From Cyanobium sp. FACHB-13342 (GTDB lineage Bacteria; Cyanobacteriota; Cyanobacteriia; PCC-6307; Cyanobiaceae), in assembly GCF_014697415.1 (NCBI RefSeq), contig NZ_JACJRT010000008.1, forward strand, positions 186,001 to 250,000: a stretch of DNA of 64,000 nt, given 5' to 3'. A model generated the notes under the pieces. That model did no database searches, was not told the origin of the DNA, and was given only the letters and a program-made list of their open reading frames with translations. Below, piece by piece: positions 40,311 to 45,500 of this stretch (positions are counted from its first letter, which is position 1; each line of letters opens with the position of its first letter). The position numbers and the translations under genes were made by a program.

Positions 40311-40550
40311 TCAGCCCAGGGCGCGGATCGTGCTCGCCGCCGCGCGACTGATCAGGGTCAGGGGCCGTCCTTCGTCCTGGCTCAGGGCCAGATAGTGGAT
40401 GTCTTGCCAGTGGAGGGTGCCTTCCAGTTCACCCACGCCACTCACCTGAATGGCCACCGGGGTGCGGTGGCGGATCAGGTCCTGCAGGTGGCGGATGCTC
40501 GGCTGGGACGTATCGAGGGCGGTCGTCCGCTTCTCGAAAAAGCTCTGCAT
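40311..40550 (-). CDS. hfq: Cyanobacterial Hfq-like RNA-binding protein
   Basis: 79-residue LSm-fold protein. [40 protein letters not shown] is the Sm1 region of the divergent cyanobacterial Hfq, which acts with type IV pili and motility rather than as a general sRNA chaperone. Divergent from dapF with very little space, as commonly seen in picocyanobacteria. Short for canonical Hfq tails but normal for cyanobacteria. Confidence 0.85.
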
Positions 40551-40561
40551 AGGATTTGCAC

Positions 40562-41695
40562 GTGGCTGCGCTCGCCCCCATCGTGCTCCAGTTCAGCAAA
40601 TATCAAGGCCTGGGAAACGATTTCCTCATGCTTGATGGCCGGAGTGCAGCCATCGGCGATGACGGCATGGGCCTGACCCAGGAGCGCATTCAGCGGTTGT
40701 GTGACCGACGTTTTGGCGTGGGGGGAGATGGGGTGATCCTGGCCCTGCCCCCCCGGGAGGGCGGAGAGCTGCGGATGCGGATTTTCAATGCCGATGGCAG
40801 CGAACCAGAAATGTGCGGCAACGGCATCCGTTGTTTGGCCCGTTTTCTGGCGGATAGCGATGGCGATGGTCCGGGCCGGCAGTGGCAGATCGAAACCCTG
40901 GCGGGCCGGATTGTGCCGGAGCTCCAGGCCGATGGCACGATCCGGGTGGATATGGGCGTGCCCTTTCTGGAGCCCGCCACCATCCCCACCACGCTGGCCG
41001 TTGGCGAGGCCGGTGTGCCCCAGGGCCAGCTGGAGGTTGCTGGCATCACCTTTGCGGTTGGTGCCGCCGGCATGGGCAATCCCCATGTGGTGATTCCGGT
41101 GGATGACGTGGCGGCCATTGATCTGGAGCGCTGCGGTGCCGCGCTGGAAGTCGATCCCGCCTTCCCCGCTCGCACCAACGTCCACTTCGTGCAGGCCCTG
41201 AGCCCGACCCACCTGGTGATGCGGGTCTGGGAGCGGGGCGCCGGCCCCACCCTGGCCTGCGGCACGGGTGCCTGCGCCACGTTGGTGGTGGCCCATCGGT
41301 TCGGATTGGCCGAGCGACGGGCCCGGGTAGACCTGCCCGGCGGTCCCCTCGAGATTGACTGGGATCCCGCCAGCGACCACCTGTTCATGACCGGTCCTGC
41401 CCTGGCGGTGTTTGACGGGGTGGTGACGCCCGAGCTCTGGGGCGAGTCCGTTCCCCCAACCCAGGCCGCACCGGCTGCCGATGGGGCATCCGCCAACGCC
41501 CCGTCGGTGGATTGCGCCAGCGTCTGCGTCAACGGCTGCATTCGGCCTGAGGCCTGCCCGTCGGCGGAGGCTCGCGCCCGGGTGGAGGCGCTGCTGAACA
41601 ACAGCTCCCTGGACGACCTGGTGGCCCTGGCCACCGAATCCCTCGAAAACCGCACCAGAGCTCGTTTCGAGCGAGCCATGCCCCCGGGCGGTTGA
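40562..41695 (+). CDS. dapF: Diaminopimelate epimerase with Cys-rich C-terminal extension
   Basis: Converts LL- to meso-diaminopimelate for lysine and peptidoglycan. The core (to about residue 292) has the two catalytic Cys motifs EMCGNGIRCLARF and LACGTGACATLVV and FGVGGDGVIL. It is followed by a linker of Ala/Pro and a tail of about 60 residues with C-x3-C-x3-C-x5-C (DCASVCVNGCIRPEAC) and a helical end. Total about 377 residues; DapF is usually near 280. Start is uncertain: TTG 40556, GTG 40562 or GTG 40583. TGA overlaps the ATG of the next gene. Confidence 0.95.
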   Translation: MAALAPIVLQFSKYQGLGNDFLMLDGRSAAIGDDGMGLTQERIQRLCDRRFGVGGDGVILALPPREGGELRMRIFNADGSEPEMCGNGIRCLARFLADSDGDGPGRQWQIETLAGRIVPELQADGTIRVDMGVPFLEPATIPTTLAVGEAGVPQGQLEVAGITFAVGAAGMGNPHVVIPVDDVAAIDLERCGAALEVDPAFPARTNVHFVQALSPTHLVMRVWERGAGPTLACGTGACATLVVAHRFGLAERRARVDLPGGPLEIDWDPASDHLFMTGPALAVFDGVVTPELWGESVPPTQAAPAADGASANAPSVDCASVCVNGCIRPEACPSAEARARVEALLNNSSLDDLVALATESLENRTRARFERAMPPGG

Positions 41696-42864
41696 TGGCA
41701 TCTCCGGGCCTGGCGACCTACTTCGACACCAGCGCCACCACGCCGCCCTGCGAGGCCGTGCTCCGCGCGATGGCCGAGGTCCAGGCCTCGGGCTGGGCCA
41801 ACCCCTCCAGCCTGCACGGCCCCGGGCTGGCCGCTGCCGAACATCTGGAGCGATCGCGGCAGAGCCTGGCATGGCTCCTGGGCTGTGACGCCGACGAGCT
41901 GGTGGTGACCTCCGGCGGCACCGAATCCATCCACCTGGCCCTGCTCGGAGCTGCCGCGCCGCTGCAACCCGGTCGCCTGTTGATCTCCGCGGTGGAGCAT
42001 CCGGCCACCCAGGCGGCCGCCTCTCGCCTGGCGGCACGGGGATGGCAGGTGCAGACCATCCCGGTGGACCGTCAGGGCCTGCTGGATCTCAACGCCCTCG
42101 ACGACCTGCTCGCCCCACCCACCCGGCTGGTGTCTTTGATCTGGGGTCAGAACGAGGTGGGCAGCCTGCAACCGATTGAGGCCGTCGGCAGCCGTTGCCG
42201 TGCCGCTGGCGTGCTGCTGCATGTCGATGCGGTGCAGGTGCTGGGGCACCGTCCTGTCTGCTTCCGCGACCTTCCCGTGGACCTGCTCAGTGGGGCCGCC
42301 CACAAACTGCAGGGGCCCCGGGGCGTGGGCCTGTTGCTGGTCCGTGCCGGCGTGCCCCTCCAGGGCCAGCTCGGGGGCGGGGGGCAGGAGGGGGGCCGCC
42401 GGGCCGGGACCGAGCCGGTGGCCCTGCTGGCCGGATTTGCCAAGGCCCTGGAGCTATCCAGGCAGCTCCCCTCAGCGGCCGGACTGCGCGATCCGCTGCT
42501 GGAGCAGTTGCTGGCCATTCCGGGCCTTCGGCTCACTGGTCCTCCCCCGGGCCCTCAGCGGTTGCCCCACCACATCAGCCTGTTGGTGTCTCGGCCGGAG
42601 GGTCAGCCCCTCTCCGGACGGTGGCTGGTGGGTGCGATGGCGCGCCAGGGCCTGGCGATCAGCAGCGGCTCGGCCTGCAGCAGCAGTGGTTCGGCGGCCA
42701 GCCCCGTGCTGTTGGCGATGGGTTGCCCTGAAGACGAAGCCAGCAGCGGCGTGCGCATCAGCCTGGGCCCCTGGCATACCGCTGAGGATTGCAGGGTCCT
42801 GGCGACGGCCCTGAGACGCAACCTGGACCTGGCGTCCATGGGCCCGGTCGGGCCAACTCGTTAG
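41695..42864 (+). CDS. Cysteine desulfurase (NifS/IscS family)
   Basis: 389-residue PLP enzyme that removes sulfur from cysteine for Fe-S clusters or thio-cofactors. VVTSGGTESIHLALLGA, HVDAVQVLG, PLP lysine in SGAAHKLQGPRGVG, GGQEGGRRAGTEPV, and persulfide cysteine in SSGSACSSSGSAASPVL. Group I-type active loop. The ATG at 41695 overlaps the dapF stop (TGATG), so it is translationally coupled to the extended DapF. Confidence 0.93.
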   Translation: MASPGLATYFDTSATTPPCEAVLRAMAEVQASGWANPSSLHGPGLAAAEHLERSRQSLAWLLGCDADELVVTSGGTESIHLALLGAAAPLQPGRLLISAVEHPATQAAASRLAARGWQVQTIPVDRQGLLDLNALDDLLAPPTRLVSLIWGQNEVGSLQPIEAVGSRCRAAGVLLHVDAVQVLGHRPVCFRDLPVDLLSGAAHKLQGPRGVGLLLVRAGVPLQGQLGGGGQEGGRRAGTEPVALLAGFAKALELSRQLPSAAGLRDPLLEQLLAIPGLRLTGPPPGPQRLPHHISLLVSRPEGQPLSGRWLVGAMARQGLAISSGSACSSSGSAASPVLLAMGCPEDEASSGVRISLGPWHTAEDCRVLATALRRNLDLASMGPVGPTR

Positions 42865-42889: not shown

Positions 42890-43582
42890 ATGCTTCCCCC
42901 CGACCTGCGCAGCGCCGAGGCCGAAGCCCTGGTGGCGATCCAGGCAGCCCTTGCCGCAGGCGCCAAAGGGCTGTGGTCTGTGGAACTGCGTTTTGAGGGA
43001 CTGCGCCTCTTGCCGGTGGCCCTGCGCCTGCAGGCGGCCCTGGCCCCAACGGTGGCTGGCCTGCGTCTGCTGTGTGCCGATGCTGGGGCCACGGCCCTGG
43101 CCCAGCGGGATGCCCCTGAGGCGGCGTCCCAAATCGCCAGCCTGCGGGATCAGATGCGCCTGCAGCAGGCTGACGGTGGCAGCGAAGGGGTGCTGCTGCT
43201 GCTCGCTCCCTCGCCGTCCGACTACGAGGAGGTTGAGCAGGTCTGTGCCCTCCATCGCGGGGCTGTGGTGCTGTTGAACGGCAATCTCGAGGATGCCGCC
43301 GTGGGCATTGGCAGCGTGGCCCGCCAACGCCGCAAAGGATTTCTCTCGGGCTGGCAGAGCGCCTATGCCCTGATTCCCACGGGCGATGGCGCCCTGAAGC
43401 GGGCTTGCCCCGGAGCCTGGGAGCTCTATCGCCGCGATCCGGATGGGTTTCGCTTCGTGAGTCAGTTCGACCACAAGCCCGATGCTGAGGAGCAGGCCCT
43501 GGCCCTGGCCGGCGGCGCGGGTCTGGGATTGGGTGGCAATCTCAAGGTGATGGACGCCTTCATCGAGGGGCTGCGCAACTAG
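42890..43582 (+). CDS. DUF1995 family protein
   Basis: 230 residues. DUF1995 proteins are found in cyanobacteria and plastids (including low PSII accumulation-type relatives). Motifs: LRSAEAEALVAIQAALAAG, LRFEGLRLLPVALRL, and GWQSAYALIPTGDGALKRACPG-WELYR. Function in this organism is unknown, plausibly photosystem-linked. Follows the cysteine desulfurase by 25 bp. Confidence 0.82.
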   Translation: MLPPDLRSAEAEALVAIQAALAAGAKGLWSVELRFEGLRLLPVALRLQAALAPTVAGLRLLCADAGATALAQRDAPEAASQIASLRDQMRLQQADGGSEGVLLLLAPSPSDYEEVEQVCALHRGAVVLLNGNLEDAAVGIGSVARQRRKGFLSGWQSAYALIPTGDGALKRACPGAWELYRRDPDGFRFVSQFDHKPDAEEQALALAGGAGLGLGGNLKVMDAFIEGLRN

Positions 43583-43648: not shown

Positions 43649-44188
43649 ATGGCTGCCCAGAGCGACCCCACTCCCGCCCGCGATGGACGCGCCTGGAGCG
43701 TGGTGGATCTCGGTGCTGCCGCCGCCGTCGGACTCGCCCTCGCTGGGGTGATCTGGAGTCCCAAGCTCAGTGGTGCCGTCGCCAGTGCCACGGGTGCCCT
43801 CATCCCCGTCACGGTGCTGGTGGACGTGCGCGGTGTGGCGGTGGCCGATCCTGCCGCCCTGATTCAGGCGGCCCAACAGGAAGGCAAGGTGGCGATCGTG
43901 ATTCGCAACCAGCCCCACGGCTCGGTGGCGGTGAAGCAGGTCGTGCCGTTGCAGCGCAAACTTGTGGCGGTCCAGCCCAATGGCTCCGTGGTGTCGGCTG
44001 TGGACCCCAACCAGACCACCCTGGGCACGCTGGACGCCCGTTTCGTGCTCCAGGGCCAGGGCCGGCGGAGTGGTGGCGGCGTGGTCTTCGGCAACCAGAA
44101 CCTCAAGATTGGCGCCCCGGTAGAGATTGAGGGGGAGCAATACCGCATTGGCGGCACCGTGACCGGCCTGCAGCTGGGAGGCCGGTGA
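43649..44188 (+). CDS. DUF4330 family membrane protein
   Basis: 179 residues. One hydrophobic helix at about 21-41 (VVDLGAAAAVGLALAGVIWSP), then a soluble beta-rich domain (VTVLVDVRGVAVADPAAL, LKIGAPVEIEGEQYRIGGTVTGL). DUF4330 is common in cyanobacteria; role unknown. Its stop lies next to the GTG of dacB, likely one transcript. Confidence 0.8.
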   Translation: MAAQSDPTPARDGRAWSVVDLGAAAAVGLALAGVIWSPKLSGAVASATGALIPVTVLVDVRGVAVADPAALIQAAQQEGKVAIVIRNQPHGSVAVKQVVPLQRKLVAVQPNGSVVSAVDPNQTTLGTLDARFVLQGQGRRSGGGVVFGNQNLKIGAPVEIEGEQYRIGGTVTGLQLGGR

Positions 44189-44189
44189 C

Positions 44190-45500
44190 GTGACCTCGCT
44201 GCCCCCTTGCCGATGCGTCGCCCTGGCCCTGTTGCCCGCCAGCCTGGCTCCACTGGTGTCCCTGGCGGCACCGGCTCCCCAGACCCCGGCCGTTCCCGCC
44301 TTCGCCCCCCTGGCAGCGGCTCCGCTCGCCTCCCTGCCTCCCCTGCCCCCGCCGGTAGGCCTGCCCCTCCTGCAGGCCCAGGTGAGTTGTCCGGCCCTGC
44401 AGCAGCGCCTCCTGGCCACGGTGGGAGGCGAGGCATCGGTGTGGAGCATCAGCATTGCCGATCCCCAAGGTCGCCTGTTGGCCGACCTCAATGGCCTGCG
44501 GCCGCGCATCCCCGCCTCCAACCAGAAGCTGGTGAGCACGGCCTATGCCCTGGACCAACTCGGGCCCGATTACCGCCTGAACACCCAGCTCTGGCGCCTC
44601 ACGGACGGCAGCTTCCGCCTCACCGGTGAGGGGGATCCCGACCTGGCCCTGCCCCAGTTGCAACGCTTCGCCAAGTTGGCCCTGGGATCCGGCGGCAGCA
44701 CCGGGACTGTCCCCAGCGTGGTCAAACTCCAGATCGCCGAAGAACCCCGGCAAGCCTGGTGGCCGCAGGGATGGCATCCCGATGATCGCTACACCGCCTA
44801 CGGCGCGCCGATCACCCGCTTGGCTGTCACCAGCAACGCCATCCATGAGGCGGTGATGAATCCGCCCTCCAGGCTCCAGAACCTGATGAGCAAAACCATG
44901 GGTCAGCAGGGCACCAAGGTCCAGTTGTCGCTGGTGTCTGCCCGCGCCCCCATGCCTGGCGATGCGGTGTTGCTGCATCAGGAACCCTCGGCACCGATGC
45001 ACAACCTGCTGAGCCTGGCCAACACGGAAAGCCACAATTTCACTGCCGAGGTGTTGCTGCGTCAGGCCGCTGGCAGCTGGGATCTGGGCCAGGCGGCCCA
45101 ACGGGAGACCCTCTGGCTGATGGAGCAGGGCCTGCCGATGCAGGGGGTGCGCGTCGCCGATGGCAGCGGCCTGGACCGGGCCAACCGGCTCACCAGTCGC
45201 TTCCTGGCGGCCCTCCTGCTGCGCATGGACCAGCATCCCTACGGCCGGGACTACCTGGCCTCGATGGCGGTGGCGGGCCAACGGGGCACCCTGCGCAACC
45301 TGTACATCGGCACGCCCTTGCAGGGCAGGTTCTTTGGCAAGACAGGCACGATCAGTGGGGTGCGCTCCATCAGTGGGGTGCTGATGACCGCCGATGGGCC
45401 CCGCTATGTCAGTGCGATCAGCAATGGAGCGGGATCGCCGAACGACACCATCGGTCGGGTGCTGCGCCAGGCACAGCTCACCCAGCTCTGCCCCCTCTAG
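44190..45500 (+). CDS. dacB: D-alanyl-D-alanine carboxypeptidase/endopeptidase (PBP4, S13)
   Basis: 436 residues. Secreted penicillin-binding protein that trims or cuts peptidoglycan peptide cross-links. Hydrophobic, Ala/Pro-rich signal region at the N-terminus. Active-site motifs: SxxK as S110-NQK (IPASNQKLVSTAYAL), SxN in NTESHNFTAEVLLRQ, and KTG in FFGKTGTISGVRSISG. GTG start at 44190. Confidence 0.93.
   Translation: MTSLPPCRCVALALLPASLAPLVSLAAPAPQTPAVPAFAPLAAAPLASLPPLPPPVGLPLLQAQVSCPALQQRLLATVGGEASVWSISIADPQGRLLADLNGLRPRIPASNQKLVSTAYALDQLGPDYRLNTQLWRLTDGSFRLTGEGDPDLALPQLQRFAKLALGSGGSTGTVPSVVKLQIAEEPRQAWWPQGWHPDDRYTAYGAPITRLAVTSNAIHEAVMNPPSRLQNLMSKTMGQQGTKVQLSLVSARAPMPGDAVLLHQEPSAPMHNLLSLANTESHNFTAEVLLRQAAGSWDLGQAAQRETLWLMEQGLPMQGVRVADGSGLDRANRLTSRFLAALLLRMDQHPYGRDYLASMAVAGQRGTLRNLYIGTPLQGRFFGKTGTISGVRSISGVLMTADGPRYVSAISNGAGSPNDTIGRVLRQAQLTQLCPL

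Follow-up and report, generated by a model that had tools for sequence, protein, structure and literature searches.

A four-cysteine module fused to diaminopimelate epimerase in one cyanobacterial family, its free-standing relatives and the likely order of its fusion

The diaminopimelate epimerase (DapF) of Cyanobium sp. FACHB-13342 carries at its C-terminus a member of an undescribed cyanobacterial protein family, and the fusion can be traced step by step, the order of the steps being likely. The gene was found in a stretch of 64,000 nucleotides, which as a whole is called the window here. The small protein is present in most of the cyanobacteria sampled but matched nothing in the protein-family libraries that were searched, and its fusion to DapF is a concrete and testable hint of a partner for a protein that has no name. 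Below, genomes and loci are given by G and L codes and families and genera by f and g codes; f1 is the family of the window, which we take to be Cyanobiaceae.

The dapF frame of the window (40556-41695, + strand) is open throughout, from a TTG at 40556, which is a provisional start, to the TGA stop at 41693-41695. Its core (40556..41434, +) matches TIGR00652 and PF01678, the former over residues 12-290 with 276.7 bits against a curated cut-off of 114.65, so that the score of the DapF family is reached. DapF catalysis employs two Cys, and MCGNG and ACGTG, presumably the contexts of these catalytic Cys, are both found in the protein. About 89 residues follow the part covered by TIGR00652. They comprise a Pro/Ala-rich linker (41435..41506, +), variable in length and sequence over the 30 rows compared, and a C-terminal module of 62 residues (41507..41692, +), constant over the same rows, in which the spacing C-x3-C-x3-C-x5-C is followed by two predicted helices. 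The motif stretch after the linker reads DCASVCVNGCIRPEAC, with the codons for its four Cys, a putative metal site (41513..41557, +), at 41513, 41525, 41537, and 41555, and the helical stretch then runs to the stop. The ATG of a NifS-type cysteine desulfurase (aminotransferase class-V; 41695..42864, +) overlaps this stop by one base; the desulfurase matches PF00266 with 200 bits and scores 289.5 bits against TIGR03402, under the cut-off of 530.75, and we judge it to be a neighbour of dapF and not part of the four-Cys module. An earlier, sequence-only reading of this locus had described core, linker, four-Cys module, and stop/ATG overlap accurately, and its view of the tail as an added module is supported.

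The desulfurase is followed by a DUF1995 gene (42890..43582, +; PF09353, 126.8 bits), which is also seen in L078 and whose place in the gene order is kept in relatives, and an Hfq-related gene lies upstream of dapF in the divergent direction (40311..40550, −; PF21979, 61.6 bits). Downstream of the dapF-desulfurase-DUF1995 run are a DUF4330 gene (43649-44188, +) and a gene for an S13 D-Ala-D-Ala carboxypeptidase of peptidoglycan (44190-45500, +).

The DapF tail alone (linker plus module) has matches in 145 of 251 f1 genomes at E<=0.01, and the 29 top-ranking ones, not counting the window, are all on DapF, the dapF frame being split in one of them (L030). dapF itself was examined in 149 distinct f1 genomes, of which 137 were taken from the 145 with tail matches and 12 were picked from the 106 without (a thirteenth pick, G021, yielded no dapF); because of this choice the counts that follow are not prevalences. 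The four-Cys motif is present in 120 of the 149, the helical part with no more than one Cys in 17, and neither in 12, two of the latter being uncertain (G240, cut at a contig end, and G026, a fragment). Conservation of the tail with its Cys, for which the earlier reading had asked, is seen in those 120 genomes; the opposite case that it had allowed for, Cys that are not conserved, applies to a minority of 17 among the 137 tail-bearing genomes and fails for the other 120. Over 115 distinct four-Cys modules, those columns beyond the motif that hold L, A, and R are invariant (100%) and several others 97-99% conserved, while the percentages of the Cys themselves carry no weight because the modules were selected by the motif. 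Over 19 hand-picked pairs, three of them of Cys-less tails, core and module have similar median dN/dS values of 0.114 and 0.125, and the linker has one of 0.349.

The tail is dispensable, several f1 genomes having dapF without it. It lacks the Cys in the genera g5, g35, g9, g3, and g45 and is missing in g30, g26, g15, g56, g58, g4, g11, g40, and g18; the small f1 genomes without it are, we assume, Prochlorococcus-like. At two g30 loci (L095 and L098) the end of dapF resembles a decayed remnant, with the linker retained and the motif and helix degraded or shortened. Such absences, and the decay in g30, are what one would expect of a neutral appendage or read-through artefact that has no function. 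Neither a frame error, which the earlier reading had considered, nor a tail free of constraint fits with 145 of 251 genomes matching the tail, with invariant columns, and with a module dN/dS that is like that of the core and far from that of the linker; free-standing homologues, described below, also speak against a tail without function. The constraint seen in the sequences already contradicts it, to which we give almost no credence. That the tail exceeds chance is confirmed, and the observation is real. Separate translation of the module from an internal start was considered as well and is unsupported: an ATG, GTG, or TTG stands no more than 12 codons before the first Cys in 35 of the 120 fused genes, and a Shine-Dalgarno-like stretch in none.

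The number of Cys in the tail is discontinuous. Among tails of at least 50 residues it is four to six in 120 f1 genomes, zero or one in 18, and two or three in none, and most of the Cys-less tails retain the helices. On a quick DapF tree of 144 cores, with incomplete and duplicate rows omitted and with the tail-less rows as long branches, six changes of the four-Cys state are counted, of which starred branches force at least four. The Cys disappear together and the remainder is kept, as in the C+/C− zinc proteins. At three loci short repeats that keep the frame surround the first Cys of the tail, reading IDCATIDCATIDCATVC in L016 (G140), INCAINCAIAC in L259 (G076), and VDCAIDCAVAC in L271 (G187), which bring the number of Cys per tail to five or six.

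Relatives of the module are not restricted to DapF. Of 386 genomes of the phylum, 139 were matched by a profile built from 20 fused tails only; the matches that are not from f1 sit in open frames of 60-139 aa, one of them (G510) being a false hit. A mixed profile found it in 233 of 289 genomes of the class with a completeness of at least 97%, both forms and f1 included, with one module per genome in nearly all matches listed; G603 (f53) has two, at C1:4170399 and C1:1529495. Of the 56 class genomes without a match, 20 were identified individually, and at least 8 class genomes had no module match of any kind on re-examination. In the 22 genomes searched from the remaining classes of the phylum there was no match, in a run without a positive control. 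The free-standing protein is about 65-85 residues long, and its carriers include, among the best 80 of 396 matches, Nostoc, Anabaena, Dolichospermum, Aliterella, and Chroococcus. The module does therefore occur alone, as the earlier reading had anticipated, in most other cyanobacteria sampled. Searches of Pfam, NCBIfam, PHROGs, and PDB with the module returned no significant match (best E 0.19), and among literature titles we found none with a cyanobacterial DapF tail or the module family as its subject.

Carrier loci found by pattern were not used to judge the conservation of the Cys, since the search patterns themselves contain Cys. Of 20 free-standing matches that were fetched, 19 have the exact C-x3-C-x3-C-x5-C spacing and the remaining one (L082) is a false hit; in 30 further genomes, picked mostly among weaker matches, the motif is exact in 25, has a wider last gap in 3, and is absent from 2 proteins that are Cys-free but helical. 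Three f47 genomes (L326, L327, L328) share a free-standing four-Cys protein with five inserted residues ahead of the last Cys. When the Cys were masked on both sides of the comparison, in the profile as in the targets, 40 of the 49 free-standing copies, all of them prior profile matches, were still found at E<=0.05 and 26 at E<=1e-3, with 0 of 980 shuffles; masking in the targets alone left 29 of the 49 at E<=0.05, and the helix half alone found 25 at the same threshold. Judged by sequence similarity, the fused module is homologous to the free-standing protein beyond the Cys alone, and the DapF tail is almost certainly the fusion of a free-standing protein family.

The surroundings of the free-standing gene were compared at 130 loci (99 + 1 + 30), in which two genomes appear twice (L064/L188 and L079/L307), contig ends truncate many of the loci, and 30 have flanks of 1.5 kb. 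A gene that looks MnmE-like from its sequence lies nearby in 72 of the 99 loci, mostly of Nostocales, and no neighbour common throughout the phylum was seen in the 99. dapF is near the free-standing gene only at the f10 locus among the 99 and at none of the 30 further loci, so that in other cyanobacteria it is the fusion itself that suggests a link to DapF. Three other associations were looked for. Among 28 candidate stretches in viral contigs there was no relative of the module, which we take to reject carriage by viruses. A link to the phycobilisome, considered on account of the small-genome relatives without the tail, was rejected because PF00427 linkers are present in all 8 module-negative class genomes examined. 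A Zur-type control region is known for some C+/C− zinc proteins; upstream of 121 free-standing genes, Zur- or Fur-like boxes of an assumed consensus were not enriched over shuffles.

The origin of the fusion can be followed in the family f10. In all 25 genomes examined outside f1, DapF ends no more than 14 residues past the core. G286 of f10 has dapF, a separate module gene, the desulfurase, and DUF1995 in one direction, which is the gene order of the window with the module unfused, and a second f10 genome, G591, likewise shows the run dapF, module, desulfurase. A branch supported at 87/93 sets the DapF proteins of f1 and f10 apart from the others, in a tree with 10 f1 rows, without an outgroup, and with the long rows L136 and L137 omitted; in a second tree, which has its root on L137, L136 is also beside f1. 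The grouping is suggestive, not conclusive, and f10 is the apparent sister lineage of f1 by DapF, holding the state before fusion. From the f10 gene order and the tree branch we infer that relocation next to dapF probably preceded fusion. The module gene would have entered the operon of dapF and the desulfurase before f1 and f10 diverged, in their common ancestor, remained separate in f10, and in f1 have been joined to the C-terminus of DapF via a flexible linker. As fused, adjacent-but-separate, Cys-less, and lost states are all found in living lineages, the steps of the fusion are directly comparable.

By its position the desulfurase is a candidate for the partner of the module. Its start is about −40 to +20 bases from the dapF stop (offsets being estimates from BLAST starts) in 131 of the 137 f1 genomes with a tail, that is, 114 of 120 with four Cys and 17 of 17 with the helices only, and in both f10 genomes dapF and the desulfurase flank the module gene. 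The earlier reading had proposed a link between lysine/peptidoglycan synthesis and Fe-S supply; on this view the tail would serve the adjacent enzyme as sulfur acceptor or Fe-S scaffold, its Cys accepting persulfide and tying DapF to Fe-S supply. Tail and desulfurase are nevertheless uncoupled in both directions. Three g38 genomes (G037, G077, and G103) have a four-Cys DapF tail followed directly by DUF1995, the desulfurase being gone from the operon, and conversely the desulfurase stays beside dapF in all 17 genomes whose tail has no Cys motif. The g38 loci concerned, at which DUF1995 takes the place of the desulfurase next to dapF, are L270, L273, and L265; G037 and G077 are 99% complete and have two desulfurase-like matches each, the best elsewhere at 46% identity, like the second paralogue of the window at 45%, and G103, at 88% completeness, has one, at 34%. 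The desulfurase was located in 10 of the 12 tail-less f1 genomes, and in 6 of these it is equally close to dapF. An association of the module with a desulfurase, one of the supports named in the earlier reading, was seen in only 2 of the 130 free-standing loci, both of f10 and both with dapF adjoining as well. Nor are the Cys indispensable, the helical part being kept in 17 f1 genomes with no more than one Cys and in 2 Cys-free free-standing proteins. On these grounds the coupling to the desulfurase was rejected, and a role as sulfur acceptor or scaffold is in our opinion very improbable.

Loss of the Cys all together or not at all fits one putative metal centre, and this pattern is most naturally read as that of a metal or Fe-S site; there is a good chance that the four Cys form a metal site. 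For 65 residues from 41498, AlphaFold2 predicted an N-terminal part that bears the Cys, then helices 23-35 and 38-60 (mean pLDDT 81.5, pTM 0.48), and for a free-standing form the corresponding helices (pLDDT 70.5, pTM 0.38), the confidence being moderate for both, and a Foldseek search of PDB with the module gave no fold match. The models support a small hairpin and have no bearing on function. We propose that the four Cys would hold one metal centre stapling the N-terminal loop onto the two-helix hairpin, with Zn the more likely metal than Fe-S, and that the hairpin, which is conserved in the region of S-L-D-x-[LM]-[LV]-x-[LI]-A, may be the working surface, which would dock DapF onto a partner or sense the metal or redox state. 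Since whole sets of Cys were lost and the hairpin stayed, the metal would be an optional support and the hairpin would hold the core function. As an explanation of the whole, a metal-stapled docking module that was fused after relocation seems to us somewhat favoured, the docking or regulatory role in it being inferred.

Two other readings of the Cys were weighed against this one. The site might be a [4Fe-4S] or [2Fe-2S] sensor and not a Zn site, lost in some lineages, perhaps with a saving of iron. Tails that are Cys-less or lost in several f1 genera would agree with such a cluster; the spacing of the Cys is compatible with either metal and no Fe-S family in Pfam, NCBIfam, or PDB was matched, and we regard it as unlikely. 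Slightly less probable still is a redox switch, in which the four Cys as disulfides report the redox state and gate DapF. It would make sense of an enzyme that has both catalytic-Cys contexts, and set-wise loss is also expected of two coupled disulfides, but the same Cys pattern is found in free-standing proteins without linkage to dapF, and no tail of at least 50 residues has two Cys, though loss of one disulfide would permit that.

The metal-stapled docking module has a consequence for the free-standing form. By Rosetta-stone logic, the fusion predicts that the free-standing protein of other cyanobacteria binds DapF or the partner of DapF. A bolder and less likely reading is that this widespread protein of oxygenic cyanobacteria could act on DapF as regulator or adaptor in a metal-dependent way, a partnership exposed by the fusion in f1, some f1 lineages having retained the adaptor without the metal; if true, metal or redox state would be tied to lysine and peptidoglycan synthesis via a DapF adaptor. 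Repeated loss of the Cys with retention of the helices also offers a natural experiment on what a metal site contributes to a small protein.

In comparison with known systems, the core of the window protein is that of the DapF family (TIGR00652, PF01678), with a score above the curated cut-off, and the protein differs from the family model by the extra residues of linker and four-Cys module. NifS/IscS-type desulfurases have Fe-S or sulfur-acceptor partners, and the module is likewise gene-adjacent to one in f1 and f10, but differs from such partners in being uncoupled from it both ways. The module family is also similar in size and host to the small conserved cyanobacterial proteins of unknown function in the lists of PMC2823733, in the available part of which the DapF fusion is not mentioned and no match of the family to a listed locus tag was made. 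Ssr3189/Asl3888, with 55 aa, is given there among the proteins of all or most cyanobacteria; compared by description only, it is a lead and is not equated with the module family. The closest parallel known to us for the all-or-none Cys is found in the C+/C− ribosomal proteins, for example S4 (PMC3087516), in which a small Cys site is wholly present or wholly absent among homologues. No sequence relation of the module to these proteins was found, its metal is putative, and its Cys-less forms are scattered over the DapF tree.
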